A model generated the notes under the pieces. That model was not told the origin of the DNA. It did not search any database and was given only the letters and a program-made list of their open reading frames with translations. Positions 6,640 through 25,039 of a stretch of DNA of 32,964 nt are shown piece after piece (within the stretch, counting starts at the first letter, position 1; the number at the start of each line of letters is the position of its first letter). The position numbers and the translations under genes are program-made. Source of the DNA: a virus; the IMG/VR virus record IMGVR_UViG_3300002835_000656, positions 1-32,964 of that record; one strand, written 5' to 3'.

Positions 6640-8889
6640 ATGCGAATCATTACACTTCTACTGCTGATATGCACCTACGTGTCGGCACAAGTTCCGCAGC
6701 TTCAATCGTTGCCGAACAGCACCAATGTTCTATTCCTTGACTTCGATGGCGCAGTAATAAACAACCCGAACTGGAGCGCAAGCACAATCAATGCTGCATC
6801 ATCAGGATTCACCACACAACAGATTCGTGATGTGTTCAATTCTGTTGCGAACTACTATTGGATATTCGACTTGAACGTAACCACAATCGAATCCGTATAT
6901 AACGCAGCACAGACAAGCAAGCGTGGCACTATTGTATTAACGCCAACGGATTCGTGGTATGGCGGTGTCGGCGGTGTTGCCTTTGTCGGCGCGTGGGGAT
7001 GGCAGGCATATCAACCGGGATTTGTATTCACTAAAAACATAACGAGCAACGGACAACCTGACTTCAAGAGCATTGCCAACGCAACAGCACACGAAGCAGG
7101 GCATATGTTGTACCTGAACCATCATTCAGAAAACAACGCACAAGGTCAAGCAGTAGCAGCTTACTATTACGGCAAGGGTGATGGCGAAACATCATTCGCA
7201 CCACAGATGGGCGTGGCATACGGTCGCAATATCGGGGCTTGGGTATGCGGACCAATCAGCGGTCCTTGTGGGTGGCGTATGTCGGGCGGCTTCAATATGC
7301 CGAACTGGCAGGATGACATCGCAGAATTATCACTACAACGTATAGGCGGCAAGGGTTACACGCCGCATCCAAAACTATTATCATTGAAAGCAGACGACAT
7401 CGGAAACACAACAGCAACGGCTAAGAATATCAACATTGTGAACAACGCAGTAAGTGATTCGGGTATGATAGGAATGTCGTTTACAAACACGACTTCATTT
7501 CATTACATAGACAATCCACCTGTAACTATATATGATGAAGATTACTTCAGGTTCACAACTACAACGGCGCAGAACTTCACCATCAACTGCAGACCATTTT
7601 CATTCAGGCAAACGGACAACTGGCAGGCGACAATGGACACAAGGCTAATAATACGCAACGCATCGGGCAACATCATTGCACAGGATTCCAACTTGCAGAA
7701 GTTGTCATCAAGCATAACGCTAATCAATCAGCCAGCAGGCACATACTTTATTCAGGTAGGTTCAGCAGCCAACCCGAATATGAATGCCCCCTGTTACGAC
7801 ACTGACCCGATTGCGAACAGACCACAGAACAAACGCTACAACAGCGTGGGCAGGTATTATATCACAGGCACATTCGCCCCTGCTTCATCCTTACCAGTAG
7901 TGACAATAGGCAACATCAGCACGACTTGTGCAGGGGTGCAGGCTAACATCACCAATCAATCACAGAATGCAACAAGCTATGTGTGGAACTTGGGCAGCGG
8001 CGCAACACCTGCCACATCAACGGCGATAAGTCCGAATGTAACCTATTCAACAGGCGGCACAAAGACTGTGACATTAACGGCGACGAATGTAAACGGCAGC
8101 ACAACGGCGACTAAGAACTTCACCATCACGAACCCGATGCAGGTATCAATCAATGCGCCATCGAGCGTACAGGCAGGCACACCGACCACAATCACAGCCA
8201 ACGCAACAGGCGGCACAGCACCATACACATACAAATGGGCAGGTGGACAGACCACGCAGAGCATCACCATCACGCAGACCGTGACGACATCATACGGCGT
8301 GACCGTTACATCGACGAACGGATGCACTGGCGATGGATTCGTGACCATCAGCATCAGCGTAACGCCACCACCCCCGACTTGCACACAGCCGACCATAACA
8401 GCATCAACAACGTGCCAAGCGGTAACGGTCAGCATTGCACCCAACACGAACTATCAATCCATATCATTCAGCTATGCAGTGAATGGCGGCGCACAGAACA
8501 CGCAGACCTTATCAGCACCATTCACAACCACATTACCGATACAGGCATCGAGCGTAATATTGAGGGCAACGGCAACCTGTACGAATGGCACGAAGTCGGC
8601 GACCAGTGAAATCACATACACCGTGCCTGCCATATCACAAGCACCGCCAGACTTCACCTTGTCATCAAGTGGCGGTAGGTGGACAACTACATTCGTAAAC
8701 AACGGCAGCAAGTTCTACGCAATACGCTTCCGCAATGCAGGCACAACGGCGTGGAGCGAAACGACAACTAATGGCTTAACCATCACACGACCTGCAACAA
8801 TAGGAACGACGATTGAAGTACAATCGCAGTCACGATGCCAGACAGGTTCGGGTGCTTGGTCATCATCTAAAACAATCACAATTCAATAG
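6640..8889 (+). CDS. Secreted metzincin-like metalloprotease with PKD and SprB-type repeats
   Basis: 749 residues. A signal peptide (MRIITLLLLICTYVSA) is followed by a protease domain. That domain begins LFLDFDGAVINN, has WIFDLNVTTIES, and carries the zinc motif HEAGHMLYLNHH. Ligands would be His151, His155 and His161 with catalytic Glu152, as in metzincins, although the usual Gly before the third His is Tyr. Around residues 225-410 is a beta-rich region with a DYFRF segment. Around 420-495 is a PKD-like domain (TSYVWNLGSGA). The next repeat (ATGGTAPYTYKWAGGQTTQS) resembles SprB adhesin repeats. Further Ig-like sequence completes the C terminus, with no obvious type IX sorting domain. Such enzymes are secreted by bacteria, so this is probably phage-borne cargo acting outside the host. 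Codon use resembles the phage genes. Confidence 0.85.
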   Translation: MRIITLLLLICTYVSAQVPQLQSLPNSTNVLFLDFDGAVINNPNWSASTINAASSGFTTQQIRDVFNSVANYYWIFDLNVTTIESVYNAAQTSKRGTIVLTPTDSWYGGVGGVAFVGAWGWQAYQPGFVFTKNITSNGQPDFKSIANATAHEAGHMLYLNHHSENNAQGQAVAAYYYGKGDGETSFAPQMGVAYGRNIGAWVCGPISGPCGWRMSGGFNMPNWQDDIAELSLQRIGGKGYTPHPKLLSLKADDIGNTTATAKNINIVNNAVSDSGMIGMSFTNTTSFHYIDNPPVTIYDEDYFRFTTTTAQNFTINCRPFSFRQTDNWQATMDTRLIIRNASGNIIAQDSNLQKLSSSITLINQPAGTYFIQVGSAANPNMNAPCYDTDPIANRPQNKRYNSVGRYYITGTFAPASSLPVVTIGNISTTCAGVQANITNQSQNATSYVWNLGSGATPATSTAISPNVTYSTGGTKTVTLTATNVNGSTTATKNFTITNPMQVSINAPSSVQAGTPTTITANATGGTAPYTYKWAGGQTTQSITITQTVTTSYGVTVTSTNGCTGDGFVTISISVTPPPPTCTQPTITASTTCQAVTVSIAPNTNYQSISFSYAVNGGAQNTQTLSAPFTTTLPIQASSVILRATATCTNGTKSATSEITYTVPAISQAPPDFTLSSSGGRWTTTFVNNGSKFYAIRFRNAGTTAWSETTTNGLTITRPATIGTTIEVQSQSRCQTGSGAWSSSKTITIQ

Positions 8890-9287: not shown

Positions 9288-9721
9288 CGATTGACAACAA
9301 CATATTGTATATAGGCATAGACCCCGACATTGACAAGTCTGGGTTATGTGTTTATGACCGATATGCTGAAGATAAGATACAACTATTCACGGCATCATTC
9401 TTTGATGCGTTGCAGACGATTGAAGAGTGGAACAGCAGGCGCAGAACGATTGTAAAGCTTGAAGCAGGGTGGCTGAATAAGAAAAGCAACTGGCACGGCG
9501 GCAAGTCAAACGTGGCGCAGAAAATAGCCAAGAACGTGGGTGAGAATCACGCAGTAGGTAAGTTGATTGAGGTGTACTGCATCCGCAACAACTATCAATG
9601 CCACCTTGTCATCCCTAAGAAGCACAAGGTCAATGCCGAGCAATTCAAACGGCTTACAGGATACGACAAGCGAACGAATCAGGAGGTGCGAGATGCAGCA
9701 ATGTTAGTATATGGCTTATGA
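9284..9721 (+). CDS. RuvC-like Holliday-junction resolvase
   Basis: 145 residues of RNase H-like fold. It has an N-terminal strand with YIGIDPDIDKSGLCVYD (first catalytic Asp13), a second acidic site in VKLEAGW (Glu60), and a C-terminal helix NQEVRDAAMLVYG (Asp137). This is the acidic layout of RuvC-type resolvases. In phages these enzymes cut branched DNA before packaging, which fits the position ahead of the late genes. Third and fourth acidic residues cannot be placed with certainty by eye. Confidence 0.78.
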   Translation: MTIDNNILYIGIDPDIDKSGLCVYDRYAEDKIQLFTASFFDALQTIEEWNSRRRTIVKLEAGWLNKKSNWHGGKSNVAQKIAKNVGENHAVGKLIEVYCIRNNYQCHLVIPKKHKVNAEQFKRLTGYDKRTNQEVRDAAMLVYGL

Positions 9722-11418
9722 CCTTTCACGACTTATATACAGGCAGCGAGTTGTTGAGCATCTGCAAGAAGATAACCAACAACCACGACCTGACAGACGA
9801 CCTATATCAAGAAGTGTTATTGTGCCTGTTGGAGTACGACAAGAATAAACTTGCAGCTATTGAAGCACAAGGGTCGAATAACATCAAGTTCTTTGCAGTT
9901 CGTATTGTGATGACAATGTGGCGCAGTCCACGTTCGACATTCAACTACAAGTACAGGAAGCACCTACACGATGAACTGAATGAAAATATAAATGTGGTTA
10001 CTTTTGATGAAACAAAAACTACAACCTATGACGAAGCAGGCATCCAAGACTACATCCAAGAGCAAGAAAAAAGTTACGGCAGCATCGGCAAGTACCCCTA
10101 CGATGCACGGATATTGCAGCACTATATCGCAGAGGGTTCAATTCGCAAGCTGCACCGAGAGACAGGCATCCCGACATCAGCCATCCACTTCTCGCTAAAG
10201 AAAAGCAAAAGACAAATCAAAGACTATATGAACAACCAACCATACAAGGTGCTGATGCTTCGCAACGTACCTGAATCTGGCGTAGAGTACCACCGATGCC
10301 TTATTCCTGCACACCATATCGCAGACAACTACAAGCACATCGACATCACGCTAATCAACACAATAGACCAAGCGAAAGCAGATTTTTTTAAGAGCTATCA
10401 GTTGTTAGTAATCACAAGGCAGGCATCGAGGTCAATCAACCCTGTACACGTAATCAACACAGCCAAGCAGGCAGGATGCAAAGTGTTGTACGATATTGAC
10501 GATTACTGGGTACTGCCACACGACCACGTTCTATACTATGCATATAACAGAGAAGAATCAAACAGAGTGGTGGACACGATACGAGCGGCAGACTATGTGA
10601 CCACAACGACATCATACCTTGCAGACAAGATAAAGAACTACAACACCAATGTAGAGGTATTGCCGAACGGCATCAATCCAGACCAACCGCAATGGAGCAG
10701 TACGGCAACGGAATCAGACCTTGTGCGTGTCGGATGGCAGGGCGGCATCTGTCATTTGCCTGACATACAGATGATGGCTGATGGGATGGAAAGGCTACAC
10801 GATGACTTGTCAATAAATGGCAAGTATCAGGTTGTGTATGGTGGGTTCAGCAATGGACAAAAGCAGGCATTGCTTATCAACGGCGTGTATGAAGAACGAC
10901 CAATCCAGATTCAGGCGCAGGAATCATACAAATACGAAAAGGTGTTCACAAACAACTACAACTGCCTATCGCCTGACTATGCAGCTGAGTTAAAGAAATA
11001 CGAAACGACCAACATCACGACTAACGAAAAGTACAGGCGTATATGGGGCAAGGACATATACAACTACGGCTACCTATTAGACGAAATGGATGTGTGCCTT
11101 GTGCCGCTTAAGGAGAACGAGTTCAACAAATGCAAGTCGCCGCTTAAACTTGCAGAAGCAGGATTCAAGAAGAAGCCGTGCATCGTATCAAATATCCATC
11201 CCTATCAGCCGCACTACAATGGAAGCAACTACGTGCCAGTTGAACCTAACCGAAGCCATAAAGATTGGTATAAGCAAATCAAGCGAATGATTGAAAGCCC
11301 TGCAATGCGTGAGGACTATGGCAACGCACTATATGAATCGGTCAAGCATAAATTTCACATCGACACCGTAAATAAAAAACGTGTACAGTTATGGAACTTC
11401 ATCGTGAATGGATATTGA
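9718..11418 (+). CDS. Fusion of sigma-70-like domain and GT-B glycosyltransferase
   Basis: 566 residues in one unbroken frame. Residues 1-170 look like a small phage sigma-70-type factor. They have a region-2-like segment NHDLTDDLYQEVLLCLLEYD (23-42) and a region-4-like HTH (GSIRKLHRETGIPTSAIHFS, 141-160), then a basic helix. From about 175 the protein is a GT-B glycosyltransferase (GT4-like). It has YKVLMLRNVPESGVEYHRC, LPNGINPDQ, RVGWQGGICHLPD, DVCLVPLKENEF, and the donor-site motif SPLKLAEAGFKKKPCIVS. An in-frame ATG at 10228 (residue 171), preceded by A-rich sequence, could start a separate 396-aa glycosyltransferase. The start overlaps the resolvase stop. The sigma half might drive late promoters; that is inference. 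Confidence 0.8.
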   Translation: MTFHDLYTGSELLSICKKITNNHDLTDDLYQEVLLCLLEYDKNKLAAIEAQGSNNIKFFAVRIVMTMWRSPRSTFNYKYRKHLHDELNENINVVTFDETKTTTYDEAGIQDYIQEQEKSYGSIGKYPYDARILQHYIAEGSIRKLHRETGIPTSAIHFSLKKSKRQIKDYMNNQPYKVLMLRNVPESGVEYHRCLIPAHHIADNYKHIDITLINTIDQAKADFFKSYQLLVITRQASRSINPVHVINTAKQAGCKVLYDIDDYWVLPHDHVLYYAYNREESNRVVDTIRAADYVTTTTSYLADKIKNYNTNVEVLPNGINPDQPQWSSTATESDLVRVGWQGGICHLPDIQMMADGMERLHDDLSINGKYQVVYGGFSNGQKQALLINGVYEERPIQIQAQESYKYEKVFTNNYNCLSPDYAAELKKYETTNITTNEKYRRIWGKDIYNYGYLLDEMDVCLVPLKENEFNKCKSPLKLAEAGFKKKPCIVSNIHPYQPHYNGSNYVPVEPNRSHKDWYKQIKRMIESPAMREDYGNALYESVKHKFHIDTVNKKRVQLWNFIVNGY

Positions 11419-11654: not shown

Positions 11655-11878
11655 ACCAATCACAATACGAAAGACTAAAGGCTGCGTGGACTACATACAA
11701 CACGTGGAAAGTGGCAGGCTTCGTATCGGGCGACAACCAATCTCAGGCAAACCTGATGACGATGCTATCCGTACATATTGAGTTGTTCAATATGCCACCG
11801 CCTGACTTGTCTTGTCCATCTTGCGTACAGGATATGATGAAACGATTATATGAACATTCAAACTACACCTATGAATAA
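11651..11878 (+). CDS. Hypothetical protein, 75 aa, with CPSC pair
   Basis: I choose ATG 11651 (MNQSQYERLKAAW) because it overlaps the preceding stop (ATGA); a longer frame upstream would run deep inside the membrane-protein gene. The protein is helical and ends DLSCPSCVQDMMKRLYEHSN, so one CxxC pair is present. The CxxC followed by a helix resembles small phage proteins of unknown role. It overlaps the glycosyltransferase start by 8 nt. Confidence 0.55.
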   Translation: MNQSQYERLKAAWTTYNTWKVAGFVSGDNQSQANLMTMLSVHIELFNMPPPDLSCPSCVQDMMKRLYEHSNYTYE

Positions 11879-12644
11879 GGCACTGATAGCAATGGCAGTG
11901 TATAATACTGCTGAGAATAAAAAGTTTGAGGTAACGAAGCGCACCATTGATGGTCTAATTAATTCATATGTTCACCATAGACATGACCTATACATTATCG
12001 ATAATGGCTCGCATCATGAAACAATTGATTACATTTTATCACTACCCAAACGAGTAACAAAGATATTTAATGGGGCAAACATCGGAACTGCAAGAGCAAT
12101 CAATAAGGCATGGCAGTTTAGGAAGCAAGGTCAACACGCAATAAAGATGGATGATGATGTAATAATTCATTGTGATAATTGGGTTGAACAGATGATTGAA
12201 GCAATTGATTGTGACCATAACATTGGCATCGTAGGGCTGAAGAGAAAGGATTGTTGGGAGCATCCAAAGCATGAAGAAGAAGATTATAAGTCAACACTTA
12301 TTCAATTGCCACATACACCTGGAAGTCGATGGATAAATGTAGAAGTAGTTAGGCACGTCATAGGAACTTGCCAAATGTATAACTCTGCATTACTGGATAA
12401 GATGGGATTCCTATATCAACCTTCACTCTATGGGTATGATGACGTGATTGCATCGCATAAGTCACAGATAGCAGGGTTCTATAATTGCTTCCTAAACCAC
12501 ATCGACATTGACCACATCGACGAAGGAAATACACCTTATCAGTCATGGAAAGAAAAACATAGCAGCGAAGTGACACAAGAAGTAATTAACTTTGTTCACC
12601 AAATGATAAGAGGTGAACGTGAAATTTATCAACCATTTTACTAA
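11871..12644 (+). CDS. GT-A (family 2-like) glycosyltransferase
   Basis: 257 residues from ATG 11871; a start 21 nt upstream is possible. GT-A features are the first strand ALIAMAVYNT, LYIIDNGS (40-47), NIGTARAINKAW (70-81) and the metal-binding site KMDDDVIIH (Asp94-Asp96). Later come RHVIGTCQMYNSALLDKMGF and a GYDDV acidic site. Such enzymes move sugars from nucleotide donors to acceptors. The gene is more AT-rich than the phage average, as is the next one, so they may have been acquired together. The sugar and acceptor cannot be read from the sequence. Confidence 0.85.
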   Translation: MNKALIAMAVYNTAENKKFEVTKRTIDGLINSYVHHRHDLYIIDNGSHHETIDYILSLPKRVTKIFNGANIGTARAINKAWQFRKQGQHAIKMDDDVIIHCDNWVEQMIEAIDCDHNIGIVGLKRKDCWEHPKHEEEDYKSTLIQLPHTPGSRWINVEVVRHVIGTCQMYNSALLDKMGFLYQPSLYGYDDVIASHKSQIAGFYNCFLNHIDIDHIDEGNTPYQSWKEKHSSEVTQEVINFVHQMIRGEREIYQPFY

Positions 12645-13288
12645 TGATAGTTATAACTAAGATATATACAGAAACACCTTACACTATTCAGATGGTCAAG
12701 TCATTTGAAAAACAAGGATATGAAGTTGCAGTATTGAAAGGACCACACAAAGGAAATGGAGAACTGCTTCGAGAACTTTATGAATGCTACAAGCAAGCAG
12801 CAACAGGTCATAAGACATTCTGTTATTCGGATGGGGCTGATACTTATTGCCAAAAGGCTTTTGATGCACCAAAAGATAAAATAATCTATTCAACAGAAAA
12901 GGCATTGTTCCCTCCACTGGAAGGACTTCAATATCCTGACAAGCCAGTAGTTAACTCAAAATGGAAACATTTGAATGGAGGTGGCGTATGTGGTAGTTTA
13001 GAAGTCATGATTGAATTTATGGAAAAATATGGATTGACAAAACTTACCAATGAAGCAACGGCACAGCTTGAACTTCACTATGCATATTTTGAAACATTAA
13101 AAGATGGCTTTCCATTTGAATTAGATTTTGATTGTAAAATATTTCAATGCATAGCACACATGGAAGAGGGTGACTTTGAATATAAAGATGGGTTGGTCCA
13201 CAACAAAATAACAAAAACAACACCTGCAATTATTCACGCTAATGGAATTACACCCACCCCTAAAGAGTGGGGATTTAAAATTTGGTAA
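12644..13288 (+). CDS. PLOD-type (procollagen galactosyltransferase-like) glycosyltransferase
   Basis: 214 residues with the motif set of the PLOD1-3-like glycosyltransferase domain. It has TKIYTETPYTI at the N terminus, the acidic site YSDGADTY (61-68), the nucleotide-sugar region IIYSTEKALFPP, LNGGGVCGS (110-118), the acidic LDFDCKIFQ, and IIHANGI near the C terminus. In animals this domain glycosylates hydroxylysine; viral and bacterial relatives are mostly uncharacterised. It starts on the last base of the preceding gene's stop codon, so the two are coupled. AT-rich composition matches its partner. Confidence 0.75.
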   Translation: MIVITKIYTETPYTIQMVKSFEKQGYEVAVLKGPHKGNGELLRELYECYKQAATGHKTFCYSDGADTYCQKAFDAPKDKIIYSTEKALFPPLEGLQYPDKPVVNSKWKHLNGGGVCGSLEVMIEFMEKYGLTKLTNEATAQLELHYAYFETLKDGFPFELDFDCKIFQCIAHMEEGDFEYKDGLVHNKITKTTPAIIHANGITPTPKEWGFKIW

Positions 13289-13308
13289 TATGTCATAAAA
13301 GCAAGGCA

Positions 13309-13944
13309 ATGATTTCAATATACGACATCACAGCAGAATTTGAAAGGAAGCTATGCGAGTACACAGGTTCACCATATGCAGTGGCAGTAGATAATCAAAG
13401 CAATGCGTTATTTCTTGCCCTTATGTATGAAAAGCATATGGGTAAGGTAGTCAACAAGACAATCAGCATCCCATCGCACACCTATCCATCAGTGCCTTGT
13501 GCAATCATACATTCAGGCAATAAGGTGAACTTCATACCGAGCGACAGAACATTAACTGGCGAATATCAGCTTATAGGCAGTTCGGTTTGGGATTCAGCAT
13601 TGCGATTTACAGCAGGTATGTATCGAGAACATCAGTATCAATGCTTATCATTTACAGGACCATACAAGCATCTAAAACTTGGCAAGGCAGGGGCGATACT
13701 TACTGACAATTTTTATGCGTATAATTGGTTCAAGCGTGCGAGGTTCAGCGGCAGGGGTGAATGCAGCTACCACGTAGATACATTCGAGATGCTTGGGTGG
13801 AACTTTTATCTGTTACCTGAAATAGCGGCAAAGGGCGTTCGAGATATGCAGCAGTTCTACAACTTGGATGGCACGGCAAAGGAAATGCCAGACATCAGCT
13901 TGCCTTATCCTGATTTGTCTAAATTCGCAGTATATTATGAATAG
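13309..13944 (+). CDS. Shortened DegT/DnrJ/EryC1/StrS-family aminotransferase
   Basis: 211 residues from ATG 13309; a TTG upstream is possible. Sugar-aminotransferase features can be followed in order. They are FERKLCEYTGSPYAVAVDN (11-29), IPSHTYPSVPCAIIHSG (54-70), a PLP-ring Asp in VWDSALRFTAG (Asp95), the probable PLP lysine in LSFTGPYKHLKLGKAGAI (Lys120), and WNFYLLPEIAAKGV, matching the GxNxRxxExxAA segment. Full enzymes have about 370 residues. This one lacks most of the segment between the substrate loop and the PLP Asp, and the whole C-terminal small domain. It may be a minimal enzyme or an inactive relative. The acetyltransferase next door is the usual partner of such enzymes. Confidence 0.72.
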   Translation: MISIYDITAEFERKLCEYTGSPYAVAVDNQSNALFLALMYEKHMGKVVNKTISIPSHTYPSVPCAIIHSGNKVNFIPSDRTLTGEYQLIGSSVWDSALRFTAGMYREHQYQCLSFTGPYKHLKLGKAGAILTDNFYAYNWFKRARFSGRGECSYHVDTFEMLGWNFYLLPEIAAKGVRDMQQFYNLDGTAKEMPDISLPYPDLSKFAVYYE

Positions 13945-14512
13945 CCTTGCGATAGTTGGTTCGGGTGGCTTCGGTCGGGAAGTAGAGCAGTGGGCGAAAT
14001 ATTCGGGGTATAAACACATCGCATTCTACGTAAGCGACAACCTATGCAATGGCGAAATGCCACTATCCACGTTGCCAACAGATATGCCAACGGTGATAGC
14101 AATAGGCAATCCGACCGTTCGTATGCAGTTGGTGAAAGAGATGTCGAGGAATCAGAACTATGACCGCATCATACATAAGACAGCGATAACATCAAGCTAC
14201 AACAATGGAATGATACTATGCCCTTATGCAGTGATAACTACTAACGTAATTGCAGGCAGGCATTTGCATATGAACTTACATTCAGACATCGGTCACGACT
14301 GTGTGATTGGCAATTATGTAACGCTTGCACCAGGCGCACGGGTAAGTGGTTATTGCGTGATAGGTGATTGTGTCTATGTTGGTACAAACGCAGTGATACG
14401 TGAGGGCGTACATATATGCGATGTGGTGACGATAGGCGCAGGGGCGGTGGTGTTGAACGATATAACTGAATCAGGTGTTTACGCAGGAGTACCCGCAAAA
14501 AAAATAAAATAG
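13937..14512 (+). CDS. PglD/NeuD-like sugar N-acetyltransferase
   Basis: 191 residues from ATG 13937, which overlaps the preceding stop; a longer frame upstream is a shadow. The N-terminal nucleotide-sugar domain begins LAIVGSGGFGREVEQWAKYS. The C-terminal half is a left-handed beta helix of hexapeptide repeats (VIGNYVTLAPGARVSGYCVI), ending GVYAGVPAKKIK. The probable catalytic His lies in DIGHDCVIG, as in PglD-type enzymes that acetylate UDP-4-amino sugars. With the aminotransferase it could convert a host 4-keto sugar to an acetamido sugar. The required dehydratase is not in the window. O-acetylation (NeuD-like) is the main alternative. Confidence 0.8.
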   Translation: MNSLAIVGSGGFGREVEQWAKYSGYKHIAFYVSDNLCNGEMPLSTLPTDMPTVIAIGNPTVRMQLVKEMSRNQNYDRIIHKTAITSSYNNGMILCPYAVITTNVIAGRHLHMNLHSDIGHDCVIGNYVTLAPGARVSGYCVIGDCVYVGTNAVIREGVHICDVVTIGAGAVVLNDITESGVYAGVPAKKIK

Positions 14513-14514
14513 AT

Positions 14515-14958
14515 ATGGCAAAGCATAAATACATCAAGACACCTGAACAACTGTGGGAGTTATTTGAAAAATATCAAGAATCGCTTTCAATATTAAAGAT
14601 ACCGCAGTCGCACGTTAAATTAGGAGTAGTTTATTTAGAAGTTAAAGAGCCAATGACATTTGAGGGATTCGAGTGTTGGCTTGCAGATAATGATATTATT
14701 CAAGATTTAGGTGATTATTCAAAGAATGATGATGGCAGATACGCAAATTATGCCCCCATCATTACACGTATAAGGAAGAATATCTATTCACACAACTTCA
14801 ACCGAGCCGCAGTAGGTCTATACAAAGAGAACTTAATAGCACGGCAATTAGGTATGGCAGATAAGGTGCAAGAATCAGGCGACAAGCAGGTAACCGTTAA
14901 AATAGTTGATGAATCCACAAGTAGTTACAATCCCGACATTACACCAAGCGCAGAATGA
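14515..14958 (+). CDS. terS: Terminase small subunit
   Basis: 147 residues. The N-terminal half has MAKHKYIKTPEQLWELFEKY and TFEGFECWLADND, and the C-terminal half has FNRAAVGLYKENLIARQLGM followed by ADKVQE. This last helix is characteristic of small terminase (gp3-like packaging) proteins of Bacteroidota phages. It would recognise the packaging site and regulate the large subunit. It starts 2 nt after the acetyltransferase gene, linking glycan and packaging genes, and overlaps the large-subunit gene by 50 nt. Confidence 0.8.
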   Translation: MAKHKYIKTPEQLWELFEKYQESLSILKIPQSHVKLGVVYLEVKEPMTFEGFECWLADNDIIQDLGDYSKNDDGRYANYAPIITRIRKNIYSHNFNRAAVGLYKENLIARQLGMADKVQESGDKQVTVKIVDESTSSYNPDITPSAE

Positions 14959-16087
14959 AATCGTAAAGAATAGACGCAGGTTCAATGTAGTTGATTGCGG
15001 CAGGCGATGGGGTAAGTCATACCTTGCAGCACATTTATTGATAATTACATCAGCGAAAAGTAAATATCCGTGTGGTTATTTTACGCCGACATATAAGCTA
15101 CTTGAAAACACATATACGCAGCTGCAAAACTTATTGAAGCCTGCAATATCGAGAAAGCACGACAATCAATTTATCGAACTGATTACTGGTGGGCGCATAG
15201 ACTTCTGGACAATGGACAATCCATATGCAGGTCGCTCACGAAAATATAAAGTAGCCATAGTTGATGAAGCAGCATTTGCGAAGAACTTATGGGAACTATG
15301 GACTGAATCAATCAGACCAACGCTAACCGATTTAAAGGGCAGTGCTTGGTTTTTATCCACACCAAAGGGCAAGAATGACTTTTACAAATTATTCGTTAAA
15401 GGTCAGGGCGACAATGACTGGGCAAGTTGGCAAATGAGTACATACACAAACCCATTCATTGAACCATCCGAAATAGATGCAGCACGTAAAGACCTGCCCG
15501 ACATCGCATTCAATCAAGAATATATGGCTATGTTCAATGAGAATGCAGCCAACCCATTCGGACTTGAACACATACGAAAACAGATACAGCAGAAAGCAGA
15601 TGCCACCAACGTACACTTCTACGGCGTTGACCTTGCTAAGTCGAGCGACTACACCTGCATCGTGGGATTGCATCAGAACGGCAGCATAGCGTACTTCGAG
15701 CGTTTTCAAAAGGACTGGAGCAGCACCACTGCAATACTGAAGATGCTAATCGGCACAACACCTGCATTGATAGATAGCACTGGTGTCGGCGACCCTATTG
15801 TCGAAGAATTGGTCAAAATATGTCCAAATGCAGAGGGGTTCAAGTTCACATCGGAATCGAAGCAGCAGATAATGTTAGAGCTTGCTACATCGGTACAAAA
15901 GCGTGAGGTTTCTATTTTAAGTGGGGTAATGCAAGAAGAAATGGAATCATTCGAGTACACATACAGCGCACGTGGTGTGCGATATTCTGCGCCTGATGGG
16001 ATGCACGATGATACGGTATGCGCCCTTGCACTTGCTAACCATTGCAGGCTAACGAAACAATTAAACAAAGTAACTTTATTCCGATGA
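14909..16087 (+). CDS. terL: Terminase large subunit
   Basis: 392 residues from ATG 14909; a TTG directly upstream is less likely. The ATPase domain has Walker A CGRRWGKS (30-37) and Walker B VAIVDEAAF (Asp119, Glu120), with the coupling motif FLSTPKGKNDFY. The RNase H-like nuclease has acidic sites in FYGVDLAKSSDYTCIVG, ALIDSTGVGDPIVEEL and GMHDDTVCALAL. It packages DNA into proheads and cuts concatemers. It is slightly short for the family but has all the key motifs. Its stop overlaps the next start. Confidence 0.95.
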   Translation: MNPQVVTIPTLHQAQNEIVKNRRRFNVVDCGRRWGKSYLAAHLLIITSAKSKYPCGYFTPTYKLLENTYTQLQNLLKPAISRKHDNQFIELITGGRIDFWTMDNPYAGRSRKYKVAIVDEAAFAKNLWELWTESIRPTLTDLKGSAWFLSTPKGKNDFYKLFVKGQGDNDWASWQMSTYTNPFIEPSEIDAARKDLPDIAFNQEYMAMFNENAANPFGLEHIRKQIQQKADATNVHFYGVDLAKSSDYTCIVGLHQNGSIAYFERFQKDWSSTTAILKMLIGTTPALIDSTGVGDPIVEELVKICPNAEGFKFTSESKQQIMLELATSVQKREVSILSGVMQEEMESFEYTYSARGVRYSAPDGMHDDTVCALALANHCRLTKQLNKVTLFR

Positions 16088-16710
16088 TAAGAATAACCCT
16101 ACCGACAGACTGGAGCGACATCAGCATAGGCAAGTTCCAAGAGATATATGCGATACTGAAGATGCCTGATGGCTTGGTGTTGGAAAAGGACATCAAGATA
16201 CTTGCAGTGCTAACAGGACAGAGTGAAGAAGTAATCGGCAACGTGGATATGGATGACTATGCCTTTATGATGAACAAAATAACATTCATCAATCAGTTCC
16301 CAAGCGCAGACCACATCCCGACGCAGGTCAAGTTCGATGGGGTAAAGTATAACTTGCAGATGAAGATGGAAAAGCTGAAACTTGCGCAGTACATAGATTT
16401 GGAGTTGTTGAGCAAAACGCAGGATGAAATCATATACAACATGCACAAGATACTTGCAATCTTTATGAGCGACAGCAAGACATACAGCACTGAAGATATG
16501 ATAAGGCGAGCCGACATATTCAAGGCGAAGATGACCATTGACGTTGCCTATCCAATCACTGTTTTTTTTTATCTGCACTTCAACGCTTTGTTAAGCGCTA
16601 CACTAAGCTATTTGGTTTCGGAAGCAGACAAACAGACGAAGCAGTTGAAACAAACACTGCCGACAACTACGAGAAGAGATGGAAGTGGTATATTATTTTG
16701 GAAGAACTGA
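16084..16710 (+). CDS. Probable tail-assembly chaperone, frame-0 product
   Basis: 208 residues from ATG 16084, overlapping the terminase stop (ATGA). It begins MIRITLPTDWSDISIGKFQE, has ILAVLTGQSEEVIGNVDMDD, and ends in a basic, low-information tail (KQTLPTTTRRDGSG). The N-terminal half resembles tail-assembly chaperones, which hold the tape measure protein. A run of nine T at 16562-16570 allows a -1 shift into a frame that stays open to 16850, as in lambda G/GT. It lies next to the terminase rather than directly before the tape measure gene (23429), which is unusual. The chaperone assignment rests mainly on the frameshift architecture. Confidence 0.6.
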   Translation: MIRITLPTDWSDISIGKFQEIYAILKMPDGLVLEKDIKILAVLTGQSEEVIGNVDMDDYAFMMNKITFINQFPSADHIPTQVKFDGVKYNLQMKMEKLKLAQYIDLELLSKTQDEIIYNMHKILAIFMSDSKTYSTEDMIRRADIFKAKMTIDVAYPITVFFYLHFNALLSATLSYLVSEADKQTKQLKQTLPTTTRRDGSGILFWKN

Positions 16711-16850
16711 GCAGCGACAGGCGTATGTGGGATTACTATTTCGATATGCAGATAATTGAATTTTTTAATTACTATTCATTCAGGCTTGACAAGGCACGGA
16801 ATGATGAAGCAAAACAAAAGAAGCAATGGCAACAATCCCGAAAGGCATAA
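16084..16850 (+). CDS. Probable -1 frameshift fusion product of the chaperone gene
   Basis: If ribosomes slip -1 at T9, the first 162 residues are joined to 93 residues read from 16569 to the TAA at 16848-16850, giving about 255 aa. The extension is protein-like, rich in Trp, Tyr and Phe (KRWKWYIILEELSSDRRMWD then YYFDMQIIEFFNYYSFRLDK), and ends in a charged helix. It fills an otherwise empty 115-nt gap and overlaps the next start by 25 nt, like other genes here. GT-type fusions are made at low ratio and bridge tail tube and tape measure proteins. Confidence 0.65.
16562..16570 (+). other. T9 slippery sequence for programmed -1 frameshifting
   Basis: Nine consecutive T in codons GTT-TTT-TTT-TAT. 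The heptamer T TTT TTT at 16563-16569 is in the correct phase for simultaneous -1 slippage of two Phe tRNAs. A sequencing error in the homopolymer is the main alternative. Confidence 0.65.
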
Positions 16851-17476
16851 ACAAATTACAAAGAGAAAGGTGGGCGAAGTTCGAGGCAGCCGACATCGGC
16901 ATCACGGACACAAGCGACACGCAGGTAATCATACAAGACAGCATCACGGACATACTAATCAAGTTCATCACAGCCGTAAAAAGTCAGGTGCAAGAGAATC
17001 TGAATGCGACGAGCAAGACAGGGCAGCAGAGCCTATATAACAGCGTGCAGGTGAATGTTGAAGAAACAGGCAACACGGTATCTGTTCAGCTTGTGATGAA
17101 CGACTATTGGAAGTATGTGGACAAGGGCGTGAAAGGTCGCAAGTCAACGTATCCCGAGAGTGCTGATTCGCCGTTCGCCTACCCACAGAAGCCGAAGTCA
17201 AGTGGCGGCAAGTTTCAGAATAGTCTTGAGTTATGGATTGCGCAGAAGCCGATACAGATACGCACAAGCACAACACAATCGGGAGCAGCAGTACGCAACA
17301 TCAACAGCAGCATTGCATACGCTATACGCAACAAGATAATTGACAGAGGTATCAGGGCGACTAACTTCTTCAGCAGCGTAATCAACGACCAGAGCATTGC
17401 GGCATTACGTGAGGAAACCGAGAAGCGACTGGGCAAGAAGTTAGAGATTGCACTGACCACATTCAAACGACAATAA
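16826..17476 (+). CDS. gp10-like neck/tail-completion protein
   Basis: 216 residues. Features shared with HK97 gp10-like proteins are an N-terminal helix, a central YWKYVDKGVKG segment, SLELWIAQKPIQIR, and the C-terminal pattern IAYAIRNKIIDRGIRATNFF. These proteins close the head-tail joint or the tail end. The start overlaps the frameshift extension upstream by 25 nt. It is followed by a 19-nt gap containing the shared TTTCTATTTA box of the next gene. Confidence 0.68.
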   Translation: MATIPKGINKLQRERWAKFEAADIGITDTSDTQVIIQDSITDILIKFITAVKSQVQENLNATSKTGQQSLYNSVQVNVEETGNTVSVQLVMNDYWKYVDKGVKGRKSTYPESADSPFAYPQKPKSSGGKFQNSLELWIAQKPIQIRTSTTQSGAAVRNINSSIAYAIRNKIIDRGIRATNFFSSVINDQSIAALREETEKRLGKKLEIALTTFKRQ

Positions 17477-23428: not shown

Positions 23429-25039
23429 ATGGCAGAAGTAGTATTAGATGTAAAGGTCAACACAGGGGCAAGCACGAATGCGCTTAAGGAAGCACGCAAC
23501 GAAATAAAACAGTTGACTGCTGCTGCATTGGAAGCGGAAAAGGCAGGCGACAAAGCGTTATCAGATACGTATGCAAAGAAAGCAGCCGAAGCACGTGACC
23601 AAGTAAAAGACCTGCAAGAGAAAATCAATGCACTTGACCCGGGCGCAAAGGCGCAGGCATTCGCTGCATTCGGTCAAACGGTGGCAGGTGGATTGACAGC
23701 GGCTATATCTGCAACGGCGTTATTCGGTGACAAGAATAAAGACCTTGAAGCTACACTTGTCAAGGTTCAATCAGCAACGGCACTATTGCAGGCTACACAA
23801 TCAATTGCGGATGGATTGAAGCAGGCGAGCATCATCAAGACCGTTGCACTGACCACAGCACAATCAGCATACGCAACAGTAGTCGGCGGCACAACAGGCG
23901 CATTGAAGTTATTCAGGATAGCACTTGCATCAACAGGCATCGGGTTGGTAACTGTCGCACTTGGTGCATTGATAGCCAACTTTGAAAAGGTCAAGCAGGC
24001 TATTAATAGCTTTCTTGATACATTAAAAAATATACCGCTTATAGGCAAATTCATTGATGTTGCTCAAAGTGGTGCAAGCAAAGTATTGAACTGGGTAACG
24101 AGTTCAGATGCGGCAAATGATAGCCAAAAAGAATTAAACAAAACACTTGACGATTCTACTCAAAAAACAGATAAATACAACGATTCCATATCTAAAGTAG
24201 ATGAACAGACAAAGACCTATGTAAGCGGCAGTTTGAATGATTACAACAATAGGCTAACCAGACTGCGAGAGGAATTAAACAATCTCGTAATAGGCAGTGA
24301 TGCGTTCTTAGCTAAACAGCGAGAGATTGCAGCTACCGAAGCAGATTTGAAACGATTAACCACAACACCTGCGCCACCACCTGAAGCACCTGCAGCGAAA
24401 GTCGGTCAAACAGAAGAAGAAGCGGCACAAGAGCGACAGAAGATTGAAGAAGATGAAAGAAAAAAACGTGAGGAAAAGCAAAAGCAAGATATACAAGCGG
24501 AGCAGGACAGATTAAACAGGATTAACGCATTTAAGATACAATCCACGCAGGATACACTTTCTGCTATACAGAAATTAACGGAAGCATTTCAAGGGAAAAG
24601 CAACGCATCAGCACGTAGGGTATTTGCCATCAATAAGGCGGTAAGTATTGCACAAGCGACAATCGACACATTACTATCAGCGCAATCAGCATACAAGTCG
24701 CAGTTCAATCCTGTTGCGGAAGTCACTTCACCAGTCAGGGGTGCTATTGCGGCAGGTATTGCTCTTGCGCAAGGTCTTGCACGTGTTGCTTTAATTCAAA
24801 AACAGAAATTCGAGGGTGGCGGCGGCAGTGTATCGAGTGCAGGAGCAGGTGGCGGTGGCGGCGGTTCAATATCTGCACCAACAGCACCGACGATACCCGT
24901 ATTCAACCCACAAGGCACAATCATACCACAAGGGCAAGAACAAGGGCAGCAACCGATTAAGGCGTATGTTCTTGAAGATGATATCAGCACATCACAGAAT
25001 CGAATTACAGACATAAAAACAAAAGCACTATATGGATAA
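23429..25039 (+). CDS. Tail tape measure protein
   Basis: 536 residues. The N-terminal ~75 residues form a charged, Ala-rich coiled coil (ARNEIKQLTAAALEAEKAGD). Ala-rich helices and a hydrophobic segment (about 155-175, with STGIGLVTVALGALIANF) follow, as expected for a tape measure protein that spans the tail lumen and membrane. A second coiled coil (EEERQKIEEDERKKREEKQK-like) comes after a Pro/Ala hinge. The C terminus has Gly-rich sequence near 463-485. The size suggests a fairly short siphovirus tail. About 24000-24240 is more AT-rich. It overlaps the next gene by 8 nt. Confidence 0.82.
   Translation: MAEVVLDVKVNTGASTNALKEARNEIKQLTAAALEAEKAGDKALSDTYAKKAAEARDQVKDLQEKINALDPGAKAQAFAAFGQTVAGGLTAAISATALFGDKNKDLEATLVKVQSATALLQATQSIADGLKQASIIKTVALTTAQSAYATVVGGTTGALKLFRIALASTGIGLVTVALGALIANFEKVKQAINSFLDTLKNIPLIGKFIDVAQSGASKVLNWVTSSDAANDSQKELNKTLDDSTQKTDKYNDSISKVDEQTKTYVSGSLNDYNNRLTRLREELNNLVIGSDAFLAKQREIAATEADLKRLTTTPAPPPEAPAAKVGQTEEEAAQERQKIEEDERKKREEKQKQDIQAEQDRLNRINAFKIQSTQDTLSAIQKLTEAFQGKSNASARRVFAINKAVSIAQATIDTLLSAQSAYKSQFNPVAEVTSPVRGAIAAGIALAQGLARVALIQKQKFEGGGGSVSSAGAGGGGGGSISAPTAPTIPVFNPQGTIIPQGQEQGQQPIKAYVLEDDISTSQNRITDIKTKALYG

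Follow-up and report, generated by a model that had tools for sequence, protein, structure and literature searches.

The gene that follows the terminase large subunit gene in the analysed window (a single IMG/VR virus record of 32,964 bases) carries two overlapping open reading frames (ORFs), the second of which continues in the -1 frame from a run of nine T. The dual coding is real; chance, sequencing error and a decayed gene are excluded. Both frames are under selection, as is a run length of at least nine, and the two encoded domains are covalently linked in fused homologues. The reading proposed here is that a group of Bacteroidota siphophages depends on an obligatory stretch of nine or more T, on which RNA polymerase slips, to produce a pair of tail assembly chaperones; on comparative sequence data, it is assigned a probability of roughly 0.6.

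The features of the locus are listed in Table 1. The positions given in the initial annotation, including the 25-nt overlap of the -1 ORF with the next start, were correct to the base. The terminase and chaperone genes overlap by 4 nt, the chaperone ATG overlapping the terminase stop. The frame-0 protein consists of an N-domain that ends at the slip site (residues 1-162), followed by a 46-aa frame-0 tail.

Table 1. Features of the dual-coding locus and related genes in the window.
Feature	Position	Strand	Evidence or remark
Terminase large subunit	14906..16087	+	PHROG phrog_2, 2.4e-40; Pfam Terminase_6N, 7.8e-8
Probable tail assembly chaperone, short form (frame 0), 208 aa	16084..16710	+	ATG 16084, TGA 16708-16710
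T9 slip run	16562..16570	+	T9 or T10 in all 258 loci bearing the site
In-phase heptamer T_TTT_TTT within the T9 run (ribosomal reading)	16563..16569	+	Sequence
-1 frame ORF, C-terminal domain of the long form	16569..16850	+	93 codons plus TAA 16848-16850; fused in sister clade
Dual-coding overlap, both frames constrained	16570..16710	+	64 disjoint pairs of relatives
Next gene, 216 aa, phrog_29822 (unknown function)	16826..17476	+	ATG 16826 overlaps end of -1 ORF by 25 nt
Tape measure protein gene, not adjacent to chaperone gene	23429..25039	+	phrog_3336, 1.1e-13

The run is read GTT TTT TTT TAT in frame 0 and lies in the sequence context TG-TTTTTTTTT-ATC. It was the sole run of at least nine T observed on the + strand of the window, for which a dinucleotide shuffle gave an expectation of 0.19. 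When the frame-0 tail was shuffled synonymously, 5% of the shuffles left the overlap free of -1 stops, so the open frame is weak evidence alone and the comparative evidence is decisive.

An IMG/VR scan with the terminase retrieved relatives down to 36% identity. All of those spanning the region (69/69) carried exactly T9 in the same phase, with a -1 ORF of 88-98 codons; within this set, L075 was truncated by the contig end. A scan with the -1 domain gave 349 relatives, of which 80 were kept, and two further terminase scans brought the total to 258 loci, forming 98, 68 and 33 clusters at 90, 70 and 50% identity, respectively. Some loci in this total come from a contig retrieved more than once; those in which the -1 ORF is complete amount to 207 different nucleotide sequences. 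For four loci (L177, L182, L213 and L215), the run was assigned separately, because its distance upstream from the detected domain exceeded the range scanned automatically.

The run was T9 in 252 of the 258 loci, T10 in six and shorter in none, and in every one of them it was followed by a -1 ORF, homologous across the loci and about 80-107 codons long. A programmed -1 change of frame at the T9 run, as claimed in the initial annotation, was thereby borne out, both the run and the -1 frame being kept in the relatives where their conservation was to be checked. In the T10 loci, read CTT TTT TTT TTC, the extra T lies outside the shift and the frames are still out of register. The 68 cluster representatives together cover 490 kb, and on this strand they contain only two other runs of at least nine T. 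The terminase tree contained two very distant groups, with 44 rows around the window and 33 around the Nonlabens phage P12024S, and the run was present in both, which, together with its conservation in 258 loci, excludes a sequencing artefact. One locus on a 5-kb contig (L019) has lost the slip site through a 93-nt in-frame deletion; it was the only intact locus with neither run nor fusion and was treated as an aberrant or misassembled copy.

Run length was maintained independently of codon phase. Among the conserved loci, an A/T homopolymer of at least about nine, here always T, was present in all three phases: the usual NTT TTT TTT TNN, TTT TTT TTT in four loci (L262, L274, L281 and L289), and NNT TTT TTT TTC in a locus from a Bacteroidetes MAG (L305). 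In the close relatives L289 and L300, the run was shifted by 2 nt and still counted exactly nine T. The three T beyond the six required by an X_XXY_YYZ motif were also invariant, and neither T7, T8 nor any other heptamer was found at the site in 33 divergent clusters. A run of at least nine T in any phase, the lack of other heptamers and the fixation of three surplus T fit RNA polymerase slippage better than slippage of the ribosome.

In 57 of the 68 clusters, the first -1 codon is TTA or TTG, so that the second Phe codon could change from TTT to TTC without altering the protein of either frame. This doubly silent change was never seen, for which the probability at 71% TTT usage is about 10^-10.8 with 68 clusters or 10^-5.5 with 33, under a neutral model that ignores a possible preference of ribosomal slippage for UUU over UUC. 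No Shine-Dalgarno-like element was seen upstream of the run in the loci examined, nor any RNA structure downstream of it (mean z -0.06). The missing stimulator is weak evidence, because ribosomal shifts of the lambda type can work without one (PMC5009743).

Published data also bear on the number nine. Selection against A/T runs is evident from nine nucleotides in a large proportion of bacterial genomes (PMC1088944), and ribosomes of E. coli shift only weakly at U_UUU_UUU; the RNA-DNA hybrid measures 9-10 bp (PMC5009743), a length that the T9 run matches. Four facts, namely the surplus T, the phase-free length, the absent T-to-C change and the lack of a stimulator, together with the published nine-nucleotide data, lead us to favour programmed transcriptional slippage over ribosomal -1 frameshifting with moderate confidence.

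The strongest competing explanation is ribosomal -1 frameshifting at T_TTT_TTT, in which two tRNA-Phe would slip by one base on unchanged RNA as in lambda G/GT. This was the mechanism named in the initial annotation, and its placement of the heptamer in the correct phase was accurate for the window and proved valid in every locus; the direction of the shift is likewise always -1. There is precedent in the tail chaperones of many long-tailed phages, some without stimulators (PMC5009743), and Bacteroidia do perform ribosomal frameshifting, in the +1 direction at prfB (PMC8710568). However, a ribosomal shift needs only six to seven of the nine T, yet nine are fixed in all three phases, and neither shorter runs and other heptamers nor the doubly synonymous T-to-C change are ever used. 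Ribosomal slippage was accordingly judged possible but not favoured, with a substantial minority share of the probability. Since a T9 run always holds an in-phase T_TTT_TTT, both mechanisms could also act.

Under transcriptional slippage, RNA polymerase would slip on the run and add one U in a fraction of transcripts, and ordinary translation of these mRNAs would give a protein of the form N-domain-V-F-F-L-(-1 domain). Both the short frame-0 form and a minority long form, composed of the N-domain and the -1 domain, would thus be made from a two-product gene resembling those of tail assembly chaperones such as lambda G/GT, with the run of nine T as the switch. The ratio of the two forms would presumably matter for tail assembly.

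That the -1 ORF belongs to the same protein was evident from a sister clade of eight loci (L186, L192, L193, L197, L198, L199, L217 and L218), placed beside the T9 clades with support of 99/96. In these loci the T run is missing and a single ORF spans both domains. When the fused proteins were compared with 68 slip-type representatives, the junction aligned without gaps, the second Phe of the run closing the N-domain and the following residue opening the -1 domain. The initial annotation had regarded the -1 ORF as a real C-terminal extension, and the covalent link in the fused homologues agrees with this. Slip-type junctions read V/L-F-F-L/F, with both Phe in 68 of 68, and fused-clade junctions read T/K/A-K/E/N-F/V/M-L/I/V. 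As the Phe pair is not kept in the fused clade, it is a by-product of the T run and not a requirement of the protein. Fusion of the two parts, as in this clade, can dispense with the shift.

The fused clade also weighs against re-initiation, in which ribosomes that have reached the frame-0 stop would start again on the -1 ORF as a small gene in its own right; this is how the end of that ORF is annotated in JQ823122 and JQ823123 (P12024S_39 and P12024L_41). An ATG does overlap the frame-0 stop in P12024S, and one lies within 6 nt of it in 9 of the 68 clusters. ATG is absent from the whole -1 ORF in 10 of the 68, though, and the median position of the first ATG is codon 48, so that the conserved L-F motif (codons 13-14) lies before it, which makes separate translation unlikely. 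With the gap-free fusion at the run, and with the run itself left unexplained, re-initiation is very improbable.

Selection on the two frames was assessed from difference rates per codon position in 64 disjoint pairs of relatives. Rates at positions 1, 2 and 3 were 0.092, 0.058 and 0.270 in the upstream frame-0 gene and 0.061, 0.030 and 0.197 in the -1 ORF past the frame-0 stop. Within the overlap, counted by -1 codon position, they were 0.143, 0.074 and 0.102 in the first half and 0.082, 0.044 and 0.147 in the second. The -1 wobble rate in the overlap was 0.63 (95% 0.51-0.77) of that outside it, a slowing that arises because the same base is position 2 of frame 0. The frame-0 tail is therefore also constrained, most strongly right after the slip site; its description as low-information in the initial annotation did not hold, since it is under purifying selection. 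A homopolymer miscount or DNA phase variation, by which a real or alternative genome T10 (or T7) would form one continuous frame, has a negligible probability: homopolymers are error-prone, and a true T8 or T10 making one frame continuous had been named at the outset as what would refute the shift, but the comparative data rule this out, as the frames are out of register in all 258 loci, the six with T10 included, the frame-0 tail is under a selection that this explanation does not predict, and independent assemblies at about 95% and 86% identity share the same T9, which excludes a miscount.

The identity of the protein was approached through both profiles and structures. Pfam and PHROG scans of the two products of the window gave no significant family, and a profile search of solved structures gave no relative. 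Among 26 N-domain homologues, nine matched phrog_166 'tail protein' (best 6.2e-6), seven matched phrog_32199, the P12024S protein's own family (best 4.9e-5), and one matched phrog_18582 'tail assembly chaperone' (0.0032). The AF2 model of the N-domain had a pLDDT of 91.8. A Foldseek search of it against the PDB returned no significant match, and in a second-look structural alignment the HK97 tail assembly chaperone 2OB9 ranked second, weakly, with Z 3.3 over 66 residues. Against predicted viral structures (BFVD), 33 matches below 1e-3 were obtained, the Nonlabens phage P12024S among them, followed by an entry named tail assembly chaperone at 9e-3. The model of the -1 domain (pLDDT 73) was too weak for a reliable structure match.

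Searches against 50,697 phages, by DNA with the 5-kb region and by tblastn with the -1 domain and with the relatives' N-domain, found nothing. As the resemblance of the N-terminal part to tail chaperones is weak, the function is inferred, and a tail assembly chaperone is the best guess for the frame-0 product. The same identity had been called probable in the initial annotation, a strength that the weak matches to phrog_166 and 2OB9 do not raise to proof.

Flavobacterium phage 6H also appeared among the predicted-structure matches, with a poor TM-score of 0.37. Although suggested by fold, it was rejected as a slip-type member, having only T6 and an immediate -1 stop. Its following ORF (L220:8600-11000, minus strand) is in the -1 frame, which may point to a different mechanism or to an error in the sequence.

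G/GT frameshifting is a textbook ribosomal recoding event of long-tailed phages. In lambda, the short form binds the tape measure, the extension binds the tail tube, and the forms are made in a defined ratio. The gene described here resembles this system in being small, with a minor product extended C-terminally through the -1 frame near the 3' end, in needing the extension as a fusion, and in probably serving as a chaperone for tail assembly; two products encoded in overlapping frames and a conserved shift site are further shared traits. In contrast to lambda G/GT, nine or more T take the place of a variable X_XXY_YYZ heptamer, the overlap spans about 25-88 codons with the frame-0 tail under selection, and no homology between the window's gene and lambda G or T could be detected at the sequence level. 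The position also differs, the usual though not strictly defining place being between the tail tube and the tape measure genes, whereas this gene follows the terminase with the tape measure about 6.8 kb away; the initial annotation had remarked on this unusual distance, and it was measured at 6.6-6.9 kb.

Programmed transcriptional slippage at A/T runs is known from the A9 of Thermus dnaX, from Shigella T3SS genes and from many IS elements. The present locus shares with these a conserved homopolymer of nine, a second product in the shifted frame and the lack of a ribosomal stimulator. In the open-access literature searched, no report was found of RNA polymerase slippage in Bacteroidota, of programmed transcriptional slippage in a phage tail chaperone or a Bacteroidota phage, or of a chaperone system with at least nine T.

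If the reading is correct, the locus would do in transcription what lambda G/GT does in translation: the proportion of the two tail chaperones would be governed by RNA polymerase, of the host or of the phage, and not by the ribosome. Such control may be well suited to hosts in which ribosomes make little use of Shine-Dalgarno pairing. Gene callers would split or lose the chaperone gene in these genomes, as in P12024S and P12024L.

The portal protein of the window, compared with 50,697 records, matched only Nonlabens and Tenacibaculum phages. Assembled genomes with the locus, found in the terminase scan, included Psychroflexus and another Bacteroidetes MAG, both with T9. On these grounds, a Bacteroidota phage, as initially annotated, is well supported for the group as a whole, which is large and mostly uncultured. 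A MAG contig labelled Euryarchaeota (L303) has a P12024S-like terminase and a T9 chaperone gene; it probably belongs to a Bacteroidota phage and was mis-binned. A single T9 occurs in Tenacibaculum phage Larrie.

Cultured members were found in the Nonlabens (Persicivirga) phages P12024S and P12024L (Inhavirus), which carry the same gene after the terminase with the same T9 and phase. In P12024S (JQ823122), the T9 lies at 23578-23586 in the usual phase, and the -1 ORF has 81 codons from 23585; its sister phage P12024L shows the same arrangement. Both are distant from the window, the N-domains being linked by weak profile matches (phrog_32199) and by fold. P12024S and its Nonlabens host form a cultured pair in which the mechanism is directly testable. 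In both records the frameshifted gene (L219:23136-23830 in JQ823122; L302:1447-2141 in JQ823123) is annotated as two unrelated hypothetical proteins, and the -1 part before the ATG is unannotated, only its end being annotated.

Several other genes of the window were noted. Positions 6640-8889 encode a secreted-looking protein of 749 aa with a reprolysin-like HExxHxxxxxH metallopeptidase motif (Pfam 3.5e-5) and a PKD domain (4e-8), an unusual cargo for a phage. A 566-aa ORF at 9718-11418 gave matches to sigma-70 region 2 in its N-terminal part and to a glycosyltransferase in its C-terminal part, both weak and below the cut-offs, and is a possible fusion. At 11850-14512, a cluster of glycosyltransferase 2, DegT-type aminotransferase and PglD/hexapeptide acyltransferase genes suggests phage-encoded modification of surface sugars.
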